DNA of 64,000 bases, taken from NCBI GenBank assembly GCA_021792365.1, contig JAJYUT010000009.1, positions 1 to 64,000 on the forward strand. The letters are read 5' to 3'. Source of the stretch: Pseudomonadota bacterium (GTDB taxonomy: Bacteria > Pseudomonadota > Alphaproteobacteria > Dongiales > Dongiaceae). The translations under genes were made by a program, and so were the position numbers. Position 1 is the first letter of the stretch. Each line of letters starts with the position of its first letter. Below the pieces are notes generated by a model. That model was not told where the DNA came from and made no database searches. It was given only the letters and a program-made list of their open reading frames with translations. Below are positions 28,243 to 39,548 of this stretch, piece after piece.

Positions 28243-28962
28243 ATGGAATCCATCCCACACATCGCGATCGTCGACGATCACAAGGACATCCGGGAACTGG
28301 TCGGGCGCTATCTCGGGCAGCATGGCTGCCGGGTGAGCGCGGCCGACAGCGCAGCCAGCCTGCGCCACCTGCTTCAGCGCAGCGCGCCCGACCTGGTGGT
28401 GCTCGACGTCATGATGCCGGGGGAGGACGGGCTCTCCGTCTGTCGCTACCTGCGCGCGACCAGCAACCTGCCGGTCATCCTGCTGACCGCGGCGGCGGAG
28501 GAGACCGACCGCATCATAGGCCTGGAGATCGGCGCCGACGATTACGTGACGAAGCCGTTCAACCCGCGCGAGTTGCTGGCGCGCATCAAGGCGGTCCTGC
28601 GCCGCGCCAACAGCTTGCCGCCACAGCGCTCGGCCCAGCGCAACAAGGCCGTGCGCTTCGACCGTTGGATGCTCGACGTCGGCCGGCGCGAGCTGATCGG
28701 CGCGGACAGCGTCGCGGTGCCGCTCAGCACCGCGGAGTACCGCCTGCTCTGCGTGCTGGTCGAGCGGCCGGGCCTGGTGCTGACCCGCGATCAATTGCTG
28801 GACCTGACCGTCGGGCGCGCCGCCGACGTCTATGATCGGTCGATCGACAACCAGGTCAGCCGCCTGCGCAAGAAGATCGAGCTCGACCCGCGCAACCCGA
28901 GCCTGATCAAGACCCATTGGGGCGGCGGCTACAGCTTCACCGCGGAAGTGACGCCCGCATGA
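28243..28962 (+). CDS. OmpR-family response regulator
   Basis: A 239-residue two-component regulator. The receiver domain has the acidic pocket VDDHKD (Asp11, Asp12), the phosphoacceptor Asp55 in VVLDVMMPG, and the conserved Lys in DYVTKPFNP. The C-terminal winged-helix domain ends with the typical RLRKKIELDP and THWGGGYSF. The start ATG has GGAG 8 bases upstream. Its stop overlaps the kinase start by 4 bases (ATGA), so the pair is translationally coupled. It is the obvious candidate to bind the duplicated 23-bp box beside its own gene and before the hydroxylase/sox operon. Confidence 0.95.
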   Translation: MESIPHIAIVDDHKDIRELVGRYLGQHGCRVSAADSAASLRHLLQRSAPDLVVLDVMMPGEDGLSVCRYLRATSNLPVILLTAAAEETDRIIGLEIGADDYVTKPFNPRELLARIKAVLRRANSLPPQRSAQRNKAVRFDRWMLDVGRRELIGADSVAVPLSTAEYRLLCVLVERPGLVLTRDQLLDLTVGRAADVYDRSIDNQVSRLRKKIELDPRNPSLIKTHWGGGYSFTAEVTPA

Positions 28963-30422
28963 CCGGCATCCGGTGCCTGTGGTCGCGCTGCTTCTGGACC
29001 AAGAGCCTGGTCGGCCAGCTCATTGGCTTCATGCTGCTGGCGCTGGTGGTCTCGCAGGCCATCAGCTTCTTCATCTATTGGGACGAGCGCGGCCAGGCTT
29101 TGCGCGCCGCCGCCAAGGAGGAGTTCCTGGTCCGCTCGGCCTCGGTCGCGCAATTGCTGGAGACCACGCCGGCCAGCTACCACCCCGAGATCCTGCGCGC
29201 GGTCGCCACCACCTACACGCGGTTCTGGCTGACCACGGAACGCCCGGACGACGTCACGGCCTGGAAGGCGGAGGCGTGGTACCGGCTCGGCCAACCCTTG
29301 CCGCGCTATGGAGAGCCGGAGCGCCGGCCGGAGCCGCTGCCCGACACGCGCGCCACGTCCAAGGACGCATCCCTGGTCACGGCCCCCGCTTACGCTTCGG
29401 AGTTCAGCACGTGGGACGTCCTGCCCGCCACCTCCTGGTCGCTGGATCGGCCGGCGCACTTCGTGCGGCTGGATCACACGTATGGCGCGGGGCTCACGGT
29501 CGAGTTGCAGGGCGGCAGGTGGTTGAACGCGGCCTTCGCGAAGGCCGCCTATGGCTCCATCTGGACGCAATCCACCGTTTCCCTCGCCATCACCGCGGTC
29601 GTCCTGACCTTGATCGCGGTGCTGGTCGCGCACCGGGTCTCGCGGCCGATGCGCCGACTCGCCTTCGCGGCCGAGGCGTTCGGGCGCGGCGAGGAGATCA
29701 AGCCGCTGCCTGAGGAAGGGCCGACCGACATCCGCCGCACCGCCGAGGCCTTCAACCGCATGCAGGAGCGGCTGCGCCGCTTCGTATCGGACCGCACCAG
29801 CATGCTGGCCGCCATCGGCCACGACCTGCGCACGCCGATCACGACACTGCGGCTGCGCGCGGAGTTCGTGACCGATATGGACATGCGCGAGAAGATCCTC
29901 GCGACGCTCGACGAGATGCAGGCGATGACCGAGGCGACGCTCGCCTTCGCCCGCGAGGAGGCGACCGGCGAGCCGACCCGCGTTGTCGACCTCGCCGCGC
30001 TGGCCGAGAGCGTGTGCAACGACCTGGCCGATCTCGGCTGGGACGTCACCTTCGCCGAAAGCGGCAAGGTGCCCTATCGCTGCAGGCCTGCCGCCATCCG
30101 CCGCGCTTTGCGCAACCTGATCGAGAATGCCGTGCGCTATGGCGGCGGCGCGCGCGTCGGCCTCGCGCTTGCCAAGGATTCCTTCGAGATCTCCATCGAG
30201 GATGACGGCCCCGGCATCCCCGAAGAGGAGTTCGAGCGCGTCTTCGTCCCCTTCTTCCGGCTGGAAGGCTCGCGCAGCCGCACCACCGGCGGCGTCGGCC
30301 TCGGCCTCTCCATCGCCCGCACCATCGCGCGCGGCCATGGCGGCGACATCGAGCTCACCAACCTGCGCAGCGGCGGCCTGCGCGCCGTGATCCGCCTGCC
30401 CCAGGAACCGAAGGTGCGATAG
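28959..30422 (+). CDS. Sensor histidine kinase
   Basis: A 487-residue membrane kinase, partner of the preceding response regulator. Two transmembrane helices (about residues 17-40 and 205-228) bracket a ~165-residue periplasmic sensor domain with no family I can name. A HAMP linker (HRVSRPMRRLAFAAEAF) follows, then the H-box AAIGHDLRTPIT (His near residue 288), the N-box RNLIENAVRYGGG, and the G boxes EDDGPGIPEEE and GGVGLGLSIA. All catalytic motifs are intact. What it senses is unknown; the downstream genes suggest an aldehyde, aromatic or reduced-sulfur signal. Confidence 0.94.
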   Translation: MTGIRCLWSRCFWTKSLVGQLIGFMLLALVVSQAISFFIYWDERGQALRAAAKEEFLVRSASVAQLLETTPASYHPEILRAVATTYTRFWLTTERPDDVTAWKAEAWYRLGQPLPRYGEPERRPEPLPDTRATSKDASLVTAPAYASEFSTWDVLPATSWSLDRPAHFVRLDHTYGAGLTVELQGGRWLNAAFAKAAYGSIWTQSTVSLAITAVVLTLIAVLVAHRVSRPMRRLAFAAEAFGRGEEIKPLPEEGPTDIRRTAEAFNRMQERLRRFVSDRTSMLAAIGHDLRTPITTLRLRAEFVTDMDMREKILATLDEMQAMTEATLAFAREEATGEPTRVVDLAALAESVCNDLADLGWDVTFAESGKVPYRCRPAAIRRALRNLIENAVRYGGGARVGLALAKDSFEISIEDDGPGIPEEEFERVFVPFFRLEGSRSRTTGGVGLGLSIARTIARGHGGDIELTNLRSGGLRAVIRLPQEPKVR

Positions 30423-30654: not shown

Positions 30655-31107
30655 ATGGCGCGCATAACGGTCAACGGAATCCCCCACGATGTCGACGTCG
30701 AGCCGGAAACCCCCTTGCTCTGGGTCCTGCGCGAGCAGCTGGGACTGACCGGCACCAAATACGGCTGCGGCGTGGCGCAGTGCGGCGCATGCACGGTCCA
30801 GATCGACGGTGCCGCGACGCGCTCCTGCGTCCTGCCGGTCAGCGCCGTCGAGCCCACGCAGAACGTGACCACCATCGAGGGCCTGTCCTCCGACGGCTCT
30901 CACCCCGTGCAGAAGGCGTGGCTCGCGCTCGATGTGCCGCAATGCGGTTATTGCCAAGCCGGCATGATCATGGCGGCCGCCGCTCTCCTCGAGCAGAACA
31001 AGAGGCCGACCGATACCGACATCGATGCGGAGATCACCAATATCTGCCGGTGCGGCACCTATAACCGCGTCCGCGCCGCGATCAAGCGCGCCGCCGAAGA
31101 AGCTTAA
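30655..31107 (+). CDS. [2Fe-2S] small subunit of a molybdenum hydroxylase (IorA type)
   Basis: A 150-residue electron-transfer subunit of the xanthine dehydrogenase family. The N-terminal ferredoxin-like cluster site is [18 protein letters not shown] with a later Cys in RSCVLP, and the C-terminal helical domain binds the second cluster with CGYCQAG and CRCGTY. In isoquinoline 1-oxidoreductases and related aldehyde dehydrogenases such a subunit passes electrons from the molybdenum centre. The inner ATG behind GAAGGG is chosen. It is followed 22 bases later by the large subunit. Confidence 0.93.
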
Positions 31108-31129
31108 CCGCAAGCTGTTAGGGGCAGTC

Positions 31130-33307
31130 ATGAACGCCATCTCGAAGCTTTCCCGCCGCAACTTCATCGTCGGTTCCACCGCCGCCATCGGCGGCCTCTC
31201 CCTCGGATTCCATGTGCCCTTCGGCCGCGAGGCCTTGGCCGATGGCAGCGCGCCGCCCGAGGTCAATGCATGGGTTGTGGTGAAGCCGGACGACACGATT
31301 GTCATCCGCATCGCGCGATCCGAAATGGGCCAGGGCTCCCTCACTGGCCTCGCGCAGCTGGTCGCGGAAGAGCTGGAATGCGACTGGTCCAAGGTCACCA
31401 CCGAATATCCGACGCCCGGTCAGAACCTCGCCCGCGACCGTGTGTGGGGCGATTTCACGACCACGGGCAGCCGCGCCATCCGCCAGTCGCACCAATATCT
31501 GCGCCAGGGCGGCGCCGCCGCGCGCGAGATGCTGATCGCCGCCGCGGCGGAGCAATGGAGCGTGCCGGCAAGCGAGTGCCAAGCTGCCAACAGCATCATC
31601 ACGCATCAGCCGACCGGACGCACCACGACCTACGGCCAGGTGGCCGAGGCCGCCGCCCGCCAGTCGCCGCCGGCCGAGATCACGCTCAAGGACCCGAAGG
31701 ACTGGAAGATCGCCGGCAAGCCGCTGCCGCGCCTCGACACCGCCGACAAGCTGACAGGAAAGCAGAAATACGGCATCGACCTTGTTCAGCCGAACATGAT
31801 GAACGCCGCGATCCGCGCCTGCCCCGTCTTCGGCGGCAAGGTAGCGAGCTTCGATGCCGCAGCGGTCGAGAGCATGCCGGGCGTGCGCAAAGTGGTACAG
31901 GTCGATGAGACTGCCGTTGCGGTCGTGGCAGACACCTGGTGGCGCGCCAAGACCGCGCTCGATGCCCTGCCCATCACCTGGGACGAAGGGCCGAACACGG
32001 GCGTCAGCAGTGCCACCATCGCCGACATGCTGGCCGAAGGGCTCGAGGCCGAGGACGCGTTCGTGGGCACGTCGCTGGGCGATGCGCGCGGGGTGATCTC
32101 TCAAGGCGGCAAGATCGTCACCGCCACCTACGCCTATCCCTACCAGAACCACGCCACCATGGAGCCGATGAATGCGATGGCGCTCTGGACACCGGAGCGC
32201 TGCGATGTGTGGGTGCCGACCCAGAGCGGCGAATCCAGCCTCGCCGCCGCGGCGGAGGCGGCGGGCCTGCCGATCCAGCAATGTGACGTGCACAAGGTCC
32301 ACTTGGGCGGCGGCTTCGGCCGGCGCGGCGGGTTCCAGGATTTCGTCGGCCAGGCCGTAAGGATCGCGAAACAGATGCCGGGCACGCCCGTGAAGCTGAT
32401 CTGGTCGCGCGAAGAGGACATGCTGCACGGCTTCTATCACCCAACCACGCAATGCAAGCTGACCGGCGTTCTCGATGACGCAGGCAACATCAAGGCGCTG
32501 CACATCCGCATCTCCGGACAGTCGATCCTGGCCGCGGTGCGCCCGGAAGCGCTGCGCGACGGCATGGATCCCGTCGTGTTCCAGGGCCTGCATAATGGCG
32601 GCGACGAATACGCCTTCGGCTATGGGGTCGAGAACCTGCTGGTCGACCACGCCATGCGCAACCCGCCGATCCCGCCGGGATTCTGGCGCGGCGTGAATCT
32701 CAATCAGAATGCCGTTTATGTGGAATGCTTCATGGATGAGCTCGCCCATGCAGCCGGTGAGGACCCCCTAGCCTTCCGGCGCAAGCTGATGGGAAATCAT
32801 CCGAAGCATCTGGCCGTGCTCGAGGCGGTGGCGGAGCGCATCGGCTGGAACAGCGCGCCACCGCAAGGGGTTCATCGCGGCCTGGCCCAAATCATGGGCT
32901 TTGGCAGCTACGTCGCCGCGGCGGCCGAGGTCTCGGTCTCTGACGGTCAACTGAGGATCCATCGGATCGTCGCGGCGACGGACCCCGGCCATGCCGTCAA
33001 CCCGGCGCAGATCGAGCGCCAGGTGGAAGGCTCCTTCGTCTACGGCTTGTCGGCCTGCCTCTACGGCGAATGCACCGTGAATGGCGGCCGCATCGAGCAG
33101 GAGAACTTCGACACCTACAACGTCCTGCGCATGGCGGAAATGCCGCAGGTCGAAACCATCATCATGCCGTCCGGCGGATTCTGGGGCGGCGTGGGCGAGC
33201 CGACGATCGCGGTCGCCGCGCCGGCGGTCCTCAACGCGATCTTCGCCGCCACCGGCAAGCGCATCCGGCGGCTTCCGCTGGCCAACCACGACCTGGGGAG
33301 CGCATGA
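31130..33307 (+). CDS. Molybdopterin-binding large subunit (IorB type), Tat-exported
   Basis: A 725-residue catalytic subunit of the isoquinoline 1-oxidoreductase/aldehyde dehydrogenase branch of the xanthine oxidase family. The N-terminus is a twin-arginine signal (LSRRNFIVGSTAAIGGLSLG), so the complex is periplasmic, carrying IorA with it. Cofactor-binding segments include SEMGQGSLTG, GGGFGRRGGFQDF and RGVNLNQNAVYVECFMDELA. The catalytic Glu is in GGVGEPTIAVAAPAV near the C-terminus. There is no FAD subunit; a cytochrome c gene starts 1 base after the stop, so electrons likely go to cytochrome c. The substrate is not known. Confidence 0.93.
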   Translation: MNAISKLSRRNFIVGSTAAIGGLSLGFHVPFGREALADGSAPPEVNAWVVVKPDDTIVIRIARSEMGQGSLTGLAQLVAEELECDWSKVTTEYPTPGQNLARDRVWGDFTTTGSRAIRQSHQYLRQGGAAAREMLIAAAAEQWSVPASECQAANSIITHQPTGRTTTYGQVAEAAARQSPPAEITLKDPKDWKIAGKPLPRLDTADKLTGKQKYGIDLVQPNMMNAAIRACPVFGGKVASFDAAAVESMPGVRKVVQVDETAVAVVADTWWRAKTALDALPITWDEGPNTGVSSATIADMLAEGLEAEDAFVGTSLGDARGVISQGGKIVTATYAYPYQNHATMEPMNAMALWTPERCDVWVPTQSGESSLAAAAEAAGLPIQQCDVHKVHLGGGFGRRGGFQDFVGQAVRIAKQMPGTPVKLIWSREEDMLHGFYHPTTQCKLTGVLDDAGNIKALHIRISGQSILAAVRPEALRDGMDPVVFQGLHNGGDEYAFGYGVENLLVDHAMRNPPIPPGFWRGVNLNQNAVYVECFMDELAHAAGEDPLAFRRKLMGNHPKHLAVLEAVAERIGWNSAPPQGVHRGLAQIMGFGSYVAAAAEVSVSDGQLRIHRIVAATDPGHAVNPAQIERQVEGSFVYGLSACLYGECTVNGGRIEQENFDTYNVLRMAEMPQVETIIMPSGGFWGGVGEPTIAVAAPAVLNAIFAATGKRIRRLPLANHDLGSA

Positions 33308-33308
33308 A

Positions 33309-33668
33309 ATGAGATTGGACGCTTCGCGTTCCGACAGCCGGTGCTTCTGGCTGTGGGTATGCGGAACGGCCACGGCGGCGCTGCTGATGATTACATCCAG
33401 CGCGGCGGCGGATTCTTCCCCCTCGAAGCTCCCGCCGTCGGGCGCGGCATCCTGCTCCGGGTGCCACGCCCCCGCTGCGGTCGCCGGAACGGTTCCGGCG
33501 ATCGCGGGTCTCCCGGCCCAAGAGATCGCGGCGGCCATGATGGCGTTCCGCGCCGACCAGCGCCCATCCACCGTGATGAACCGAATCGCGAAAGGCTTTA
33601 CGGATGAGGAGATCCGCGCAATTGCGGACTGGCTCGCAAGCAGGCAGGATCAGGCGGCCAAGCCGTAG
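33309..33668 (+). CDS. Small periplasmic cytochrome c
   Basis: A 119-residue monoheme cytochrome. A signal peptide (about residues 10-33, ending SSAAA) is followed by the heme motif CSGCH and a downstream Met (AAAMMAFRADQRPSTVMNRIA) that can be the sixth ligand, with a C-terminal helix EIRAIADWLASRQ. This is the layout of class I cytochromes such as FccA-like subunits. It lies directly between the molybdenum hydroxylase and the FccB-like flavoprotein and overlaps the latter by 65 bases. It could serve as electron acceptor for either or both. Confidence 0.9.
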   Translation: MRLDASRSDSRCFWLWVCGTATAALLMITSSAAADSSPSKLPPSGAASCSGCHAPAAVAGTVPAIAGLPAQEIAAAMMAFRADQRPSTVMNRIAKGFTDEEIRAIADWLASRQDQAAKP

Positions 33669-34920
33669 GTCGGTCCTCAAGGGCATCGCGGCCGGCACGG
33701 CCTTCGTCGCCTGCGCGCCCTACGCCGTCGGGCAGCAATCCCAGCGCGTCGTCGTGATCGGCGGCGGCTTCGCCGGCGCGAGCTGCGCGCGGGCGCTGCG
33801 GGCGTTCGCCCCCGATGTCGCCATCACACTCGTCGAGCGCGGCCGGCGCTTCACCGCCTGCCCGTTCAGCAACGCCGTCATCGCCGGGCTGCGCGCGCTG
33901 GACCAGCAGCAATTCGGCTATGATGCGCTGAGCCGGGAGGGCATCGAAATCGTGCATCGCGCGGCGATTGGCGTCGACCCGCAGGCGCGGCAGGTGCGGC
34001 TCGATGACGGCGCGATTCTCGAATATGCGCGCCTGGTCGTGACGCCCGGTATTGACCTGCGCTTCGACGCGATCCCCGGCTATGACGAGAGCGCGACCGA
34101 GGCCATGCCGCATGCCTGGAAGGCGGGCGACCAGACGGCCCTCCTGCGCCGGCAGCTCGAAGCCATGGAGGATGGCGGCGTGGTGGTGATGTCGGTGCCG
34201 GCCAATCCGTTCCGCTGTCCGCCAGGCCCCTATGAGCGCGCCAGCCTGATCGCGCATTATCTCAAGACCAGCAAGCCGCGCTCCAAGCTGATCGTGCTCG
34301 ACGCCAAGGATGCGTTCTCCAAGCAGCGCCTGTTCGAGGCAGCGTGGAAAGAGCTCTATGCCGGCCTGCTGGAATGGGTGCCGCTCTCCTTCGGCGGGCA
34401 GGTCACGGAGATCGACGTCGCGAGCCAGACCCTTGTTACCGAGTTCGGCAGCCATCGCGCCGACGTGGCGAACGTCGTCCCGCCGCAGCGCGCCGGCGCC
34501 ATTGCCGAGGCTGCCGGCGTCGCCGACCGGACCGGCTGGTGTCCGATCGATCCGGCCACCTTCGAATCGCGCCTGCAGCCGAACATCCATGTGCTCGGCG
34601 ATGCCGCCATCGCCGGCGCGATGCCGAAATCCGCCTTCGCCGCCAACAGCCAGGCGAAGGTCTGCGCGGCCGCGATTGCGCAGCTCCTGCGCGGGGAGGC
34701 GCCGGCCGCGCAGAAGCTCGTCAACACCTGCTACAGCCTGATCGCGCCCGATTACGGCATATCCATTGCCGGGGTCTACTACCCGAAGGACGGCATGCTG
34801 GCGGATGTGGAAGGCGCCGGCGGCGCCAGCCCGCAGGACGTGCCCCTCTCCTTCCGGCAGGACGAAGCGCGCCATGCCGAAAGCTGGTTCGGCACCATCA
34901 CGGCCGAGGTGTTTGGATGA
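33604..34920 (+). CDS. fccB: FccB-type sulfide dehydrogenase flavoprotein
   Basis: A 438-residue flavoprotein like the catalytic subunit of flavocytochrome c sulfide dehydrogenase, which oxidises sulfide in the periplasm and passes electrons to a cytochrome c. A Tat signal (SRRSVLKGIAAGTAFVACAP) precedes the FAD motif VVVIGGGFAGASCARAL. The Cys in RFTACPFSNAVIAG is where FccB proteins bind FAD covalently, and FRCPPGPYERASLIA and GWCPIDPATFES are family signatures. The adjoining cytochrome is the likely FccA partner. The start overlaps the cytochrome by 65 bases; no later start keeps the Tat signal. Sulfide as substrate is inferred from the family. Confidence 0.92.
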   Translation: MRRSAQLRTGSQAGRIRRPSRRSVLKGIAAGTAFVACAPYAVGQQSQRVVVIGGGFAGASCARALRAFAPDVAITLVERGRRFTACPFSNAVIAGLRALDQQQFGYDALSREGIEIVHRAAIGVDPQARQVRLDDGAILEYARLVVTPGIDLRFDAIPGYDESATEAMPHAWKAGDQTALLRRQLEAMEDGGVVVMSVPANPFRCPPGPYERASLIAHYLKTSKPRSKLIVLDAKDAFSKQRLFEAAWKELYAGLLEWVPLSFGGQVTEIDVASQTLVTEFGSHRADVANVVPPQRAGAIAEAAGVADRTGWCPIDPATFESRLQPNIHVLGDAAIAGAMPKSAFAANSQAKVCAAAIAQLLRGEAPAAQKLVNTCYSLIAPDYGISIAGVYYPKDGMLADVEGAGGASPQDVPLSFRQDEARHAESWFGTITAEVFG

Positions 34921-35363
34921 GCCTGCGCTGCATGCTCATCCTCATGATCGCCGGCATGCCGTTTATCGCCTCAGCCCAGGAACCCCTTCAACCGTTCGCG
35001 GTGCAGGCGGATTCGATCGAGCGCTCCTTGACCGGCGCGCCCGGCGATCCCGCGCGCGGCAAGGCGCTGATCGAGGACCGCCAGCGCAGCCTGTGCATGC
35101 TCTGCCACACGGGCCCCTTCGCCGATCCGCGGCTGCAGGGCGATCTCGCGCCGGATCTGGCAGGGATCGGCGCACGGCTGTCGGAGGGCCAGATCCGGCT
35201 GCGCATTGTTGACATGAAGCGTGTCGTTCCCTCCACCATCATGCCGTCCTATTATCGGGTGGACGGTCTCCGGCGGGTTGCTCCCGCTTGGCGCGGCAAG
35301 CCGATCCTCGCCGCGGCCGAGATCGAGGACCTCGTCGCCTATCTCACGACGTTGAAGGACTGA
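34917..35363 (+). CDS. soxX: SoxX, monoheme cytochrome c
   Basis: Small subunit of the SoxAX cytochrome, which attaches thiosulfate to the carrier SoxY. The 148-residue protein has a signal peptide (ending IASA about residue 20), heme motif CMLCH, and the Met ligand region PSTIMPSYYRVDGLRRVAP, typical of SoxX, with a C-terminal helix EIEDLVAYLTTLKD. Its start overlaps the fccB stop by 4 bases, and soxY follows after 2 bases. Secure. Confidence 0.94.
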   Translation: MSLRCMLILMIAGMPFIASAQEPLQPFAVQADSIERSLTGAPGDPARGKALIEDRQRSLCMLCHTGPFADPRLQGDLAPDLAGIGARLSEGQIRLRIVDMKRVVPSTIMPSYYRVDGLRRVAPAWRGKPILAAAEIEDLVAYLTTLKD

Positions 35364-35365
35364 GC

Positions 35366-35854
35366 ATGGCGGATCACGAACTTGAACCACGCCTTCAATC
35401 CATGCCTCTCCTGAACCGCAGAGAGCTGATGGCCGGCGCCGCCGGCCTGGTGCTGGTCTCGGTCGCGCGGCCCGCCCAGGCGCGGCCGGCGCTCGCCGAG
35501 GCGCTGCGCGCCTTCTCCGGAGGCGCCGAGATCCGCCCCGGCAAGGTGACATTCGAAATCCCGCCGCTGGTGGAGAACGGCAACGCAGTTGGCGTCACGA
35601 TCACCGTGGACAGGCCGATGAGCGCCTCCGATCACGTCAGGCGCATCGCCATGTTCAACGAGAAGAACCCGCAGGCCGACGTGGCTGTCTTCCAGCTCGG
35701 CCCGCGCGCCGGCCGCGCCAAGGTGCAGACCCGCATCCGCCTCGCGGATTCGCAGATGGTGGTCGCCGTCGCCGAGCTCAGCGACGGGAGCTTCTGGTCG
35801 AGCGAGGCGAAGGTCTTCGTCACGCTCGCGGCCTGCGTCGAGGACCTGTCATGA
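35366..35854 (+). CDS. soxY: SoxY sulfur carrier with a non-canonical C-terminus
   Basis: Periplasmic carrier protein that holds the sulfur substrate on a C-terminal cysteine. At 162 residues it has a Tat signal (LNRRELMAGAAGLVLVSVA), the SoxY fold (TFEIPPLVENGNAVGVTITV; IAMFNEKNPQADVAVFQLG), and ends VTLAACVEDLS. In studied SoxY proteins the end is GGCGG, a flexible arm. Here the Cys is kept but its flanking glycines are gone and five residues follow. Reading frame and overlap with soxZ are clean, so this is not an obvious sequencing shift. A start at an inner ATG 12 codons later is also possible. Family secure; mode of sulfur binding uncertain. Confidence 0.9.
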   Translation: MADHELEPRLQSMPLLNRRELMAGAAGLVLVSVARPAQARPALAEALRAFSGGAEIRPGKVTFEIPPLVENGNAVGVTITVDRPMSASDHVRRIAMFNEKNPQADVAVFQLGPRAGRAKVQTRIRLADSQMVVAVAELSDGSFWSSEAKVFVTLAACVEDLS

Positions 35855-36171
35855 CCCGCACCATGATCAGCGCGCCGGAAACCGCACGCGCCGGCGACGT
35901 CGTCGAGATCAAGGCGATGATCGCGCATCCCATGGAGACCGGCTATCGCGTCGACGCCACCGGCAAGCCGATCCCGCGCAACATCATCAACCGCTTCGAA
36001 TGCACCTATGACGGCGAGGTGGTGTTCGCCGCCGATCTCCACCCTGCCATCTCTGCCAATCCCTTCATCGCCTTCTCCACAATCGCCACGCGCAGCGGCC
36101 CAATCTCCTTCACCTGGACCGACGATGAGGGGAAGACCGAAACTGCCTCCGTGGAGATCCAAGTGGAATGA
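35851..36171 (+). CDS. soxZ: SoxZ, partner of SoxY
   Basis: A 106-residue Ig-like protein that forms the SoxYZ heterodimer. It shows the family pattern ARAGDVVEIKAMIAHPMETG, RNIINRFECTYDGE, and the end FTWTDDEGKTETASVEIQV. It has no signal peptide and is expected to be carried out by the Tat system bound to SoxY. It overlaps soxY and soxA by 4 bases each. Secure. Confidence 0.96.
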   Translation: MTRTMISAPETARAGDVVEIKAMIAHPMETGYRVDATGKPIPRNIINRFECTYDGEVVFAADLHPAISANPFIAFSTIATRSGPISFTWTDDEGKTETASVEIQVE

Positions 36172-36941
36172 GGGGGTGGTTGTCGCTGCTCGCGATCGGC
36201 CTGCTGCTGGCCGCCGCGGATTCCAACGCGATCGAAGAGCAGCCCAAGCTGTCCGGGCTGGAATTCGTGTCGCCCGAGACGCGCAGCCTGCAGGCGGACG
36301 ACGCCAGCAATCCGGGCATGCTCTGGGTCTTGCGCGGCGAGCAATTGTGGCAGGAGCCCGCCGGCCGGTCGCAGGCGAGCTGCGCAAGCTGCCATGGCGA
36401 AGCGCGGCAGAGCATGCGCGGCGTCGCGCTGCGCTACCCGGCCTTCGATGCCGGAGCCGGCCAGCCGATCGACCTGAAGGGCCGCATCAACCGCTGCCGC
36501 ACGGACAATCAGGACGCACCGGCGCTGGAGCACGAGAGCGAGGAACTGCTGGCCCTCACGACCTATGTCGCGCACCAGTCGCGCGGCATGTCCGTTCCGC
36601 CGGTCGAGGACGAGCGCCTGCGCTCCGTCATCGAACAGGGCGAGTCGCTGTTCCGAGAGCGCATCGGGCAACTCGATCTCTCCTGCGCGGCCTGTCATGA
36701 CGACCGGTGGGGGCAGCGCCTTGGCAGCAGCCCCATCCCTCAGGCGCATCCGACCGCCTATCCGCTCTACCGCCTGGAATGGCAGACCGTCGGCTCGCTC
36801 CAGCGCCGGCTGCGCAATTGCATGATCGGCGTGCGCGCCGAGCCGTTCGCCTATGGCTCGCCCGAGTTCATCGCGCTGGAGCTCTACCTGATGCAGCGCG
36901 CGGAAGGTTTGCCGGTCGAGACTCCTGGCGTCCGCCCATAA
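36168..36941 (+). CDS. soxA: SoxA, diheme cytochrome c
   Basis: Large subunit of SoxAX. The 257-residue protein has a signal peptide (ending SNA about residue 20), two heme motifs (CASCHG and CAACHD), and the active-site cysteine region RRLRNCMIGVRAEPF, where SoxA carries its persulfide heme ligand. This is the two-heme version. It is the last gene of the operon: no soxB (thiosulfohydrolase) or soxCD follows, and the next gene is an unrelated peptidase ~40 bases on. Secure. Confidence 0.95.
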   Translation: MRGWLSLLAIGLLLAAADSNAIEEQPKLSGLEFVSPETRSLQADDASNPGMLWVLRGEQLWQEPAGRSQASCASCHGEARQSMRGVALRYPAFDAGAGQPIDLKGRINRCRTDNQDAPALEHESEELLALTTYVAHQSRGMSVPPVEDERLRSVIEQGESLFRERIGQLDLSCAACHDDRWGQRLGSSPIPQAHPTAYPLYRLEWQTVGSLQRRLRNCMIGVRAEPFAYGSPEFIALELYLMQRAEGLPVETPGVRP

Positions 36942-36981
36942 AACCGATATGCTCGCTCCCCTCGAAAAGGATGGGGGCTGC

Positions 36982-38649
36982 ATGCTCAAAGGTCACAATG
37001 TCCGGCGGTTGAACCCACAGCCTGAGCGGGCCAAGGAATGGGCCTTGGCAATGACCGAGCTGCCGAGCGTCAGCGGCAGCCCGGAGGAAGCCGAGTTTCC
37101 CCATAAGCTGGCGGCGATGCTGCGTGCCAGCCCCGCATTCGCGCAGGCGCCGCAGAATGTCTGGACCATGGCCGTCCCGGGCGGACGCCACCCGCGCGCC
37201 TGCGTCGCCGCCCTGGTCCGCGGATCGGGAACCAGAACAGTGCTCCTGACCGGCCACTTCGATACCGTCCCGATCGAGGATTACGGCGACCTCAAGCCTC
37301 TGGCCGGCAGTGCGCATGCCTTGCGGCAGGGCCTACAACAGCGGCTTCGAGCAACGGCTGGAACGCCGGCCGAGAAGCGAGCGCTGCAGGATCTCGCGAC
37401 CGAGGACTACCTGCCGGGACGCGGCCTGCTCGATATGAAAGCGGGGCTCGCTGCCGGCCTTGGTGTTATCGAGGCCTTCGCTTCCGACCCGGATCGCCAG
37501 GGCAATCTCCTGTTCCTGACAGTCCCGGACGAGGAAGTGAACTCGGCGGGCGCGCGCGCTGCTGCGCCGGCCCTGCCGGAGATTGCGCGCAAGCATGGGC
37601 TGGAGATCGTCGCCGCCATCAATCTCGACGCAATTGCCGATGACGGCGATGGGTCTGTCGGCCGGGCCGTCGCGTTGGGCACGATCGGGAAGCTGCTGCC
37701 CAGCGCGCTGGTGGTCGGCGTTCCTGCCCATGCCGGCTATTCCTTCAACGGCCTCTCGGCCTGTGCCCTGGCCGGCGCTTTGGCCGCCGAGGTCGAATGG
37801 GCGCCGGAATTGACGGAGCGAAGCGGCGAGCAGGTTGGCGCGGGACCGACCTTGCTGGGCATGAAGGACAGCAAGACGGCGTATGACGTCACGATGCCCG
37901 ACAAGGTCTGGATGTTCTGGAACGTGATGCTCTATGCCCGCAAACCCACCGAGGTTCTCGAGCATATGGAGTTGCTGGCGCAACGTGCATCCGTCGGCCT
38001 GGTAGAACGATTGCAAGCGCGAAACGTCGCGGCCGGAAGGACTGATGCGCCACAGCCACCGACGGTGCGCGTGCTCACCTTCGAGATGTTGCGCCGGGAG
38101 GTGGAGGAGAAGGTTCCAGGAGCCAACAAGCTGATTGCGGATTTCGCGCGATCGGTTGCCGCGACCCATGCCGATCTGCCGGAGCAGTGCCGCCAGATCA
38201 CCGACTATGTCTGGCGCCTGAGCGGCCGCGGAGAGCCGACGATCGTGCTGGGCTTCGCGTCGACACCCTATCTTTCCACGCAACTTGGATCGGATGCGGA
38301 CGCGCGCCGCCTCGCGCGCGCTGTCGAGACCGCCGCACAGCAGATTGCTGAACGCCACGCCACGACCATTGCCGCGCCGAAATACTTCCAGGGCATCTCC
38401 GACATGAGCTTTCTTGGTCAGGCGGACGAGAGCGAAGTGCCGACGATCGCACGCAACACGCCCGCGTGGGGCGCCGGATTGCACTGGCCGGAGGGGCGTG
38501 CCTTCGCGGGCATTCCGGCCATCAATGCGGGACCGTGGGGCCGCGATTATCACACCGTGCTGGAGAGGCTCCACACGCCTTACGCATTCACCGTGCTGCC
38601 CGATCTGATCGGCGAGATCGTGACGCGCGTCTTGGACCCGGCCGAGTAG
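36982..38649 (+). CDS. M20 family metallopeptidase, RocB-like
   Basis: A ~555-residue zinc peptidase/deacylase. Metal-site motifs are visible: LLTGHFDTVP, GRGLLDMKAGLAAGLGVI and the catalytic PDEEVNSAGA. The overall length and insertion match RocB, a poorly understood arginine-utilisation relative of ArgE/DapE. The start at MLKGHNV is supported by GGGGG 5 bases upstream; an ATG 11 codons earlier has no site. It sits just after soxA on the same strand and converges on an N-carbamoylputrescine amidase-like gene, so a role in arginine/polyamine breakdown is possible. The substrate is unknown. Confidence 0.88.
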   Translation: MLKGHNVRRLNPQPERAKEWALAMTELPSVSGSPEEAEFPHKLAAMLRASPAFAQAPQNVWTMAVPGGRHPRACVAALVRGSGTRTVLLTGHFDTVPIEDYGDLKPLAGSAHALRQGLQQRLRATAGTPAEKRALQDLATEDYLPGRGLLDMKAGLAAGLGVIEAFASDPDRQGNLLFLTVPDEEVNSAGARAAAPALPEIARKHGLEIVAAINLDAIADDGDGSVGRAVALGTIGKLLPSALVVGVPAHAGYSFNGLSACALAGALAAEVEWAPELTERSGEQVGAGPTLLGMKDSKTAYDVTMPDKVWMFWNVMLYARKPTEVLEHMELLAQRASVGLVERLQARNVAAGRTDAPQPPTVRVLTFEMLRREVEEKVPGANKLIADFARSVAATHADLPEQCRQITDYVWRLSGRGEPTIVLGFASTPYLSTQLGSDADARRLARAVETAAQQIAERHATTIAAPKYFQGISDMSFLGQADESEVPTIARNTPAWGAGLHWPEGRAFAGIPAINAGPWGRDYHTVLERLHTPYAFTVLPDLIGEIVTRVLDPAE

Positions 38650-38660
38650 CGGAAGGCCTG

Positions 38661-39548
38661 TCAGCCGCCGATCCGCGGGGGCGCGCCCTGCGGCGTTACG
38701 CCGTCCAGCGTCAGAAGCGGCCAGTAGAGGTCCGGCCGTCGATCCCTGAACACCCCCCAGTTGGCGCGCTTCTCGCGCAGTTCCTCGATGTCGAATTCCG
38801 CGACGATGGCTTCCTCCTGATCCGGGCTGGCCTTCGCGACGATCTGGCCGGTTGGTCCGGCAATGAACGAGCGGCCCCAGAACGTGGTTGTGCCCAACGA
38901 ACCCTCTTCCCTGCCGATGCGGTTGGATGCGACGAGCGGCGTCAGGTTCGCGGCCGCATGGCCCTGCATCGTGACCTGCCAATGGTCGTGGCAATCGGAC
39001 CCGATGCCGGTCGGATAGAACAGGAAGTCCGCGCCCAGGACGCACATGCAGCGCGCCGCCTCCGGGAACCACTGGTCCCAGCACACGCCTACCCCAAGAT
39101 TCCCGAACCGGGTCTTCCAGACTTTGAAGCCGGTATCGCCCTCGCTGGTGTAGTTCTTCTCGAAGCAGCCGGGCGGGCCGAGCGGGATGTGCGACTTGCG
39201 ATAGATGCCGAGCTCCCTGCCCTCGTCATCGATGACCATGACCGTGTTGTAATAAGCGTTGTTCGCCCGCTCGAAGAAGTTGACCGGCAGGACGACGCCA
39301 AGCTCTTTCGCGAGCGCGCTCATGCGCCGGAGGATTGGATTGTCCTCGACCGTCATGGCGAGCCTGAAATATTCCGGCTTCCAGTCCATGAAGGCGAAGA
39401 AACGCGTGGCGAACATTTCCTGCAGCAGGACGACGTTGGCCCCTTGCTGCGCAGCCTTCCTCACCAGGCGTTCTGCGGTCGCGAGGTTCTCCTCCATGCT
39501 CCAGTTGCAAGCCATCTGTGTCGCCGCAAGTCGAACACCCATCGCCAT
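38661..39548 (-). CDS. aguB: N-carbamoylputrescine amidase-like hydrolase
   Basis: A 295-residue nitrilase-superfamily amidase. Triad residues: Glu in LLQEMFATRFFAF, Lys in YRKSHIPLGP, Cys in VGVCWDQWFPEAAR. The CWDQWFPE motif and SDCHDHWQVTMQGHAAAN are characteristic of AguB, which turns N-carbamoylputrescine into putrescine, the last step of the agmatine route. No agmatine deiminase (aguA) is next to it. It converges on the RocB-like peptidase, with 11 bases between their stops. Family secure, substrate likely. Confidence 0.92.
   Translation of the reverse strand: MAMGVRLAATQMACNWSMEENLATAERLVRKAAQQGANVVLLQEMFATRFFAFMDWKPEYFRLAMTVEDNPILRRMSALAKELGVVLPVNFFERANNAYYNTVMVIDDEGRELGIYRKSHIPLGPPGCFEKNYTSEGDTGFKVWKTRFGNLGVGVCWDQWFPEAARCMCVLGADFLFYPTGIGSDCHDHWQVTMQGHAAANLTPLVASNRIGREEGSLGTTTFWGRSFIAGPTGQIVAKASPDQEEAIVAEFDIEELREKRANWGVFRDRRPDLYWPLLTLDGVTPQGAPPRIGG

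Follow-up and report, generated by a model that had tools for sequence, protein, structure and literature searches.

Introduction

In the Sox system of thiosulfate oxidation, the substrate is held by the GGCGG arm of the carrier protein SoxY. In surveys of genomes and metagenomes, sox genes are taken as markers of thiosulfate oxidation. In passages of PMC4423706, SoxA is thought to form a cysteine adduct that is then passed to the SoxY cysteine, and SoxAX itself is described as having resisted mechanistic analysis. We analyzed a stretch of 64,000 nucleotides (the window; positions 1 to 64,000 of contig JAJYUT010000009.1, assembly GCA_021792365.1) from a member of the alphaproteobacterial family Dongiaceae. 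Eight tightly packed genes at positions 30655-36941 encode the small (S) and large (L) subunits of a molybdenum hydroxylase of the xanthine oxidase family, a cytochrome c (cyc), a sulfide dehydrogenase flavoprotein (Fcc), and SoxX, SoxY, SoxZ, and SoxA (X, Y, Z, and A in gene orders). Numbered handles below designate loci (L057), genomes (G091), and contigs (C24).

All eight genes listed in an initial annotation, made from the sequence alone, were found in place, and their families were confirmed by NCBIfam and Pfam scans. That observation is right and understated. The cluster is a conserved, uncharacterized Sox variant around a molybdenum hydroxylase, occurring in many soil- and plant-associated bacteria, and its SoxY has a reshaped arm that the annotation missed. 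Among the four Sox proteins that had been named, SoxX, SoxZ, and SoxA exceed the cut-offs of their families; SoxY is not the standard protein, as it lacks GGCGG and reaches 98 bits against the true-SoxY model TIGR04488, the cut-off of which is 125. It is very probable that the hydroxylase and the variant Sox set constitute a conserved functional unit, referred to below as the module.

Results

The altered arm of SoxY

The tail of the window SoxY reads VTLAACVEDLS, with a carboxyl-terminal arm of the AAC-x-E type instead of GGCGG. Judged from this sequence, the carrier cysteine is retained and the surrounding glycines are lost. The protein passes the cut-off of TIGR04487, a family named "SoxY-related AACIE arm protein" (Table 1). 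Arms of this class (AC arms) were defined by the pattern [AGPS]AC, so that alanine at position -1 and cysteine at position 0 hold by construction. The residue at +2 from the cysteine, which the pattern does not impose, is acidic in 92 of 96 distinct AC-arm tails. Position -6 is Ile or Val in 86 of these 96 tails and Lys in 19 of 23 GGC arms, and the residues that follow the cysteine in the GGC arms are solely Gly, Ser, Ala, Val, or Thr. Internal stops were found in none of the SoxY tails. A GGCGG arm masked by a frameshift or a late stop is unsupported, given the number of distinct AC-arm tails and their acidic +2 residue.

When SoxY proteins were arranged in a tree without the arm columns, 83 AC rows and 23 GGC rows were separated by a single change of arm type, with a support of only 71 for the dividing branch. 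Left out of this tree are rows without SoxY, L064, L093, and 23 AC-arm loci from heavily sampled genera. The GGCGG protein of L063 had no match to the window SoxY and is outside both the tree and the 23 GGC tails; the LAC arm of L243 is outside all counts. The difference between the AC arm and GGCGG is the best reason to think that thiosulfate and SoxB chemistry is not involved, and the altered tip of SoxY suggests a sulfur pathway other than the known thiosulfate one.

Some SoxY proteins depart further. The AC-arm proteins of L069 and L070 extend 36 and 22 residues, respectively, past the arm cysteine, and the gene order at both loci is split (S-L-Y-Z-cyc-Fcc-X-A). Another SoxY type, with the tail RVATDGCA, was seen in Mesorhizobium (L183, L224/L238); at L238 it adjoins SoxZ and an FccB-like gene, with no hydroxylase.

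Linkage of the hydroxylase and the variant SoxY

SoxY was surveyed across 385 genomes sampled evenly from the class. TIGR04487 matched at 1e-10 in 86 of them and above its cut-off in 21, the window genome included. From 110 other SoxY places, 60 were fetched, comprising the top ranks, the next ranks, and about 10 lower ones picked by hand, several of these because the match reached the profile end; the arms of the remaining 50 are unread. A locus was assessable if at least 4,000 bases lay upstream of SoxY, and nine of the 60 were shorter (six AC-arm, three GGC) and left out. Within the fetched stretches, S and L were found near SoxY at 28 of 29 assessable AC-arm loci and at none of 22 assessable loci of other kinds, which comprised 17 GGCGG arms, four other GGC arms, and one fused SoxYZ-like protein (Fisher p ~1.5e-13, not corrected for kinship). 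At the 29th AC-arm locus, in G091, SoxY is unlinked, and L (63% identical, L241) lies with S on another contig. The AC-arm locus of G127 (L061), too short to count among the 29, has neither S nor L in the 2,500 bases upstream and is therefore probably unlinked as well. L occurs in G127 on other contigs, at 61% identity (L240) and as a contig-end fragment at 67% (L262), with no Sox genes in the stretches seen.

The linkage also holds from the side of the hydroxylase. A profile of 17 L proteins was used to find named loci, and the 80 considered here are the best of at least 585 confirmed candidates, 22 of the 80 being from Bradyrhizobium. An AC-arm SoxY was present at 70 of them. Seven of the 10 loci without it stop at a contig edge. 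Of the three other misses, L076 (Reyranella) is a second L copy in a genome that also has a complete module, and no AC-arm SoxY was shown in the genomes of L078 and L081. Chance proximity was rejected on the grounds of the conserved gene order and this two-way linkage.

L078, from Mesorhizobium, retains S, L, a cytochrome-like frame, and the two-component system; on its right it matches the flank of L077, also from Mesorhizobium, where the module is whole. From this arrangement, the rest of the module seems to have been deleted in L078.

Control hydroxylases

Eight IorB-like hydroxylases, 33-44% identical to the window L, served as controls, three from the window genome and five from two other genomes. 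None of the eight fetched stretches contained Sox genes, and on this basis it was rejected that IorB-like enzymes in general are linked to Sox. The control is not a clean one, as a ninth distant L (G091, C24:116859) adjoins an AC-arm SoxYZ and is counted as locus L065; a tenth (G091:C7) was not fetched. The two loci that hold the paralogues of the window genome each include their own c-type cytochrome gene, with a single heme motif at one locus and three at the other. At L255, on contig C28 of the same genome, two IorB-like hydroxylases flank a three-heme cytochrome c.

Gene order and core of the module

Gene order was compared across 97 loci having an AC-arm SoxY together with S and L. The window order, S-L-cyc-Fcc-X-Y-Z-A, was the most frequent (32 loci), followed by S-L-X-Y-Z-A (25), S-L-Fcc-X-Y-Z-A (20), and S-L-X-Y-Z-A-cyc-Fcc (7), with other orders at 13. 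SoxZ was present at 96 of these loci, SoxA at 93, SoxX at 90, Fcc at 64, and cyc at 42, small proteins being under-counted because of the similarity cut-offs. From both sets of counts, the core is S-L-X-Y-Z-A and FccAB is optional. Where the six core genes occur without Fcc (25 loci), S to A measures about 4.2-5.0 kb, too little to accommodate another cytochrome gene; in one of these loci, L057, SoxX comes after SoxA.

Beyond a two-component system and, in seven loci, an extra c-type cytochrome, no telling recurrent neighbors of the module were found. Transporters and other general families recur near module loci at no fixed position. An M20 peptidase was considered as a ninth module gene and rejected, as 140 other loci gave no M20 match.

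SoxB and SoxC

In the window genome, which is 100% complete by estimate, SoxB is matched at no more than 101.6 bits (cut-off 550) and SoxC at no more than 44.5 bits (cut-off 420); SoxD was not searched for. The initial annotation had allowed that soxB could lie elsewhere in the genome. These scores speak against that and against a complete sox set outside the window, and an ordinary Sox system with a distant SoxB was rejected. Among 33 other genomes with an AC-arm SoxY, SoxB remained below the cut-off in 26 and exceeded it in seven. A separate GGCGG SoxY was read in six of the seven; in the seventh, G011, SoxB adjoins a second SoxY match, the arm of which is unread. Bradyrhizobium sp. BTAi1 likewise carries a GGCGG SoxY in addition to its module (L129).

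At an E value of 0.01, only one second SoxY-like match was obtained in the window genome (19.5 bits, on another contig). The protein with this weak match (L261, contig C30, ~199330-200142) has no terminal arm cysteine and is probably a carrier of the fused SoxYZ kind that accompanies quinoprotein dehydrogenases.

Distribution

The 80 named loci include 54 alphaproteobacterial, 21 betaproteobacterial, and one gammaproteobacterial record. The names Bordetella parapertussis and Chitinophaga pinensis, under which L113, L114, and L127 are titled, look doubtful for metagenome bins. The gene order recurs in Alpha- and Betaproteobacteria far beyond chance. It is thus kept in distant relatives, although near relatives lack a SoxY above the TIGR04487 cut-off: none was found in three genomes of the same genus, one of them 68% complete, or in 13 others of the same family, one of which gave a 59-bit match. 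The L of a Luteimonas, a gammaproteobacterium, is 77% identical to the window L. This identity and the patchy occurrence near the window point to a putative horizontal transfer of the module.

The window cluster and its surroundings

Coordinates and family assignments are collected in Table 1. The cysteines for two [2Fe-2S] clusters are visible in the S translation. The nearest solved structure to L is 8gy3_C, the large subunit of an aldehyde dehydrogenase (1.4e-77; 5.3e-110 as a profile), and the catalytic glutamate of the GVGEP motif, E690, is invariant in 17 of 17 aligned module hydroxylases. At the sequence level, the enzyme is thus of the IorAB type of the xanthine oxidase family, with a 2Fe-2S small subunit, a MoCoBD large subunit, and the catalytic Glu. 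Three further L cysteines, C84, C358, and C385, are also invariant in the 17 proteins, and no cysteine stands there in the aligned 8gy3 chain; a disulfide between neighboring strands may link C358 to C385.

Table 1. Genes of the cluster and the upstream regulatory pair (window positions)
Product	Position	Strand	Evidence and remarks
S, [2Fe-2S] small subunit of xanthine oxidase-family (IorA-type) hydroxylase	30655..31107	+	Fer2, Fer2_2 over Pfam cut-offs
L, molybdopterin large subunit (IorB-type)	31130..33307	+	MoCoBD_1, MoCoBD_2; RR motif near amino terminus (Tat-like)
cyc, small monoheme cytochrome c	33309..33668	+	One CxxCH; Cytochrom_C 23.7 bits, cut-off 21.3
Fcc, flavocytochrome c sulfide dehydrogenase flavoprotein (FccB/SoxF-like)	33604..34920	+	FCSD_central, FCSD-flav_bind
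SoxX, c-type cytochrome	34917..35363	+	TIGR04485 66.2 bits, cut-off 61
Variant SoxY, AACVED arm in place of GGCGG	35366..35854	+	TIGR04487 210.7 bits, cut-off 172; TTG start at 35360 possible
SoxZ	35851..36171	+	TIGR04490 104.2 bits, cut-off 76
SoxA, c-type cytochrome with conserved carboxyl-terminal (active-site) cysteine	36168..36941	+	TIGR04484 235 bits, cut-off 110
Response regulator and histidine kinase (upstream)	28243..30422	+	Response_reg, Trans_reg_C, HisKA, HATPase_c

The cyc protein is a possible FccA, only just above the general Cytochrom_C cut-off. Fcc matches the structures 5n1t_A (1.4e-146), 3vrd_B (7.9e-125), and 1fcd_A (4.6e-121), with the domains and redox cysteines of FccB. 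Three of its cysteine positions align with 5n1t_A and 3vrd_B and presumably include those that bind flavin or form a disulfide. The Fcc and cyc genes overlap by 65 bases, and the start codon of Fcc is uncertain. The canonical pair SoxX and SoxA is present, and the Pfam domains SoxY, SoxZ, and SoxA-TsdA cytochrome were matched among the Sox proteins. SoxA aligns with 1h31_A (7.1e-47), including the carboxyl-terminal cysteine, which we take to be the ligand of the active-site heme as in solved SoxA. The last four junctions of the cluster are 4-base overlaps, which in the case of SoxX and SoxY requires a start at the TTG at 35360.

The two-component system upstream is likely to regulate the module. 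Its response regulator is kept at 70-77% identity in 12 of the 80 named loci, at 55% in a 13th (L102), and at 79% in L053. Downstream, a gene for an M20-type peptidase (36949-38649) lies on the same strand and starts 8 bases past soxA. It is followed on the minus strand by an N-carbamoylputrescine amidase-like gene (38661-39548; TIGR03381, 374 bits, slightly below the cut-off of 410).

Discussion

Proposed mechanism

The initial annotation had tentatively placed the hydroxylase and SoxYZ in one SoxB-less pathway. The comparison strongly supports this part of its proposal by the linkage to AC-arm loci, the gene order, and the SoxB scores; the substrates named with it (organosulfur, aldehyde, N-heterocycle) are candidates. 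SoxA keeps its carboxyl-terminal cysteine, so that loading is expected to work as in Sox. With loading presumably ordinary, the arm changed, SoxB and SoxC missing, and the hydroxylase constant, it would be most parsimonious for the arm to have been reshaped to enter the hydroxylase and for the bound compound to bear a carbon that the enzyme can attack. We tentatively propose a self-contained periplasmic module in which SoxXA loads a sulfur compound, probably an organic one, on the variant SoxYZ, and the arm presents it to the hydroxylase.

In this proposal, the compound is most likely an organic thiol (R-SH), which SoxXA would couple oxidatively to the cysteine of SoxY, giving SoxY-S-S-R. Devoid of the canonical glycines, the AAC-x-E arm would deliver the attached group to the IorAB-type hydroxylase instead of SoxB or SoxCD. 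This enzyme would place a water-derived oxygen on the carbon adjacent to sulfur, the adduct would collapse, and the oxidized carbon product would be released while the sulfane sulfur stays on SoxY. FccAB, where present, might take over the sulfur and oxidize leftover sulfide or persulfide. Electrons would pass to c-type cytochromes, which at loci without FccAB would be SoxX and SoxA as the sole cytochromes between the first and the last module gene. That the hydroxylase acts on such disulfide-tethered substrates, freeing carbon from the sulfur held by SoxYZ, and that the arm sequence selects the partner enzyme, is a more doubtful step. For methanethiol, passages of PMC5371076 state that recombinant Sox enzymes of Paracoccus "showed the potential to decrease" it, and its status as a substrate was, according to the authors, still to be clarified; this is only a hint of thiol loading.

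Several observations weigh against the proposal. FccAB is missing at about one-third of the loci (Fcc in 64 of 97). L127 and L143 consist of S-L-Y-Z with no SoxXA at the locus; one of the two genomes also has a full module (L243, arm LAC) and the other has SoxA elsewhere. Module-type L without adjoining Sox genes exists (L076, L078, L081, L241 in G091, and L240 and L262 in G127). Distant L proteins are inconsistent in their linkage, as those of L065-L067 and L069-L072 (28-49% identical) adjoin an AC-arm SoxY and the eight controls (33-44%) do not. The flanking genes vary and give no common clue to the substrate. Finally, enzymes of the xanthine oxidase family mostly hydroxylate sp2 carbons and aldehydes, and simple alkyl thiols fit poorly.

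Alternative explanations

The module might instead handle inorganic sulfur: SoxXA would load thiosulfate, sulfide, or polysulfide, the hydroxylase would replace SoxCD, itself a molybdenum enzyme, and products would leave without SoxB. SoxXA, SoxZ, and Fcc are indeed ordinary in sequence, and Fcc is found at 64 of the 97 loci. We nevertheless regard this explanation as unlikely because the AC arm is sharply unlike that of thiosulfate carriers and the hydroxylase family oxidizes carbon, not sulfur. Moreover, where a module genome bears SoxB, a separate GGCGG SoxY was read in six of seven cases, and beside the SoxB of the remaining genome lies another SoxY, with its arm unread. In passages of PMC5748708, soxY2 of Bradyrhizobium diazoefficiens is reported to be unnecessary for thiosulfate oxidation, which would also count against an inorganic substrate if soxY2 is the AAC-arm gene. 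In another strain of B. diazoefficiens, one SoxY bears an AAC arm, one bears GGCGG, and a third, SoxY-like protein lacks the arm cysteine, so that soxY2 of strain USDA110 may be the AAC-arm gene.

It is about equally improbable that a free aldehyde or heterocycle is the substrate of the hydroxylase, with the Sox proteins serving it solely as electron carriers or being co-regulated for a different task such as sulfide or thiol detoxification. The nearest solved relative of L is an aldehyde dehydrogenase, unlinked L copies exist, and the paralogue loci of the window genome have their own c-type cytochrome gene, a role for which many module loci would have only SoxXA. This explanation leaves unaccounted for that the heme-less SoxYZ is kept as constantly as SoxXA (SoxZ 96, SoxA 93, and SoxX 90 of 97), that the arm changes with the partner, and that two S-L-Y-Z loci lack SoxXA. 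We give very little credence to the idea that SoxYZ brings sulfane sulfur to the molybdenum cofactor, as a periplasmic repair of the exported hydroxylase's terminal sulfido ligand. A Sox set for loading (SoxXA, Fcc) and carrying (SoxYZ) beside a single sulfido-Mo enzyme would fit it, but other exported enzymes of this family are sulfurated before export, and no Sox genes were found around the eight IorB-like controls.

Our preferred reading, the presentation of a loaded compound to the hydroxylase, would if true be a new way of oxidizing sulfur compounds. If the arm sequence also selects the partner enzyme, Sox would be a single instance of a wider carrier chemistry, with GGCGG for SoxB and SoxCD and AAC-x-E for the hydroxylase. 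Because soxXYZA occurs here in a conserved setting without SoxB and with another arm, marker-based calls of thiosulfate oxidation may be mistaken in genera such as Mesorhizobium, Bradyrhizobium, Azospirillum, and Duganella.

Comparison with known systems

Full-text literature searches, mostly at passage level and with subscription papers largely outside, found no description of the module, and the string AACIE appeared in no relevant paper of the literature searched. The module was likewise not described in the portions seen of PMC4782131, PMC6067878, PMC5748708, PMC11237559, PMC4423706, and PMC5371076. As far as its text was seen, the SoxY family survey PMC11237559 removed sequences without GGC, a filter that would exclude AAC-arm proteins. 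The SoxY family is already named in NCBIfam, so that the carrier as such is not new; the window SoxY exceeds the cut-off of TIGR04487, with which it was compared by name and scores only.

The hydroxylase resembles IorAB and the membrane-bound aldehyde dehydrogenase of acetic acid bacteria (8gy3) in subunit architecture, RR leader, and catalytic glutamate. The 8gy3 enzyme, which we take to be from an acetic acid bacterium, presumably has a cytochrome subunit; the module locus, in contrast, has no dedicated multiheme cytochrome subunit, and its partners are SoxXA and SoxYZ. With FccAB/SoxF the module shares the FccB domains and cysteines, but its cytochrome partner is a small monoheme protein and Fcc is optional. 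In draft genomes of SAR324, according to the passages seen of PMC4782131, Fcc adjoins SoxY and SoxZ with no further sox genes, and an isoquinoline 1-oxidoreductase occurs in the same genome set; the two are not linked to each other there.

The quinoprotein-associated fused SoxYZ (TIGR04557; SoxYZ-S2/S4 in the portions seen of PMC11237559) is alike in being a SoxYZ variant tied to a carbon-oxidizing enzyme. It is unlike the module in being a fused protein that goes with different dehydrogenases, and its cut-off of 140 bits is not reached by the window SoxY (53.4) or SoxZ (51.6). The thiosulfate system of SoxXA, SoxYZ, SoxB, and SoxCD shares with the module SoxXA, SoxZ, the SoxY family, and the logic of exported cytochromes and a carrier. 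It differs in the arm, which is AAC-x-E in the module, in SoxB and SoxC, neither of which exceeds its cut-off in the window genome, and in the fixed partner, which in the module is a hydroxylase of the xanthine oxidase family.

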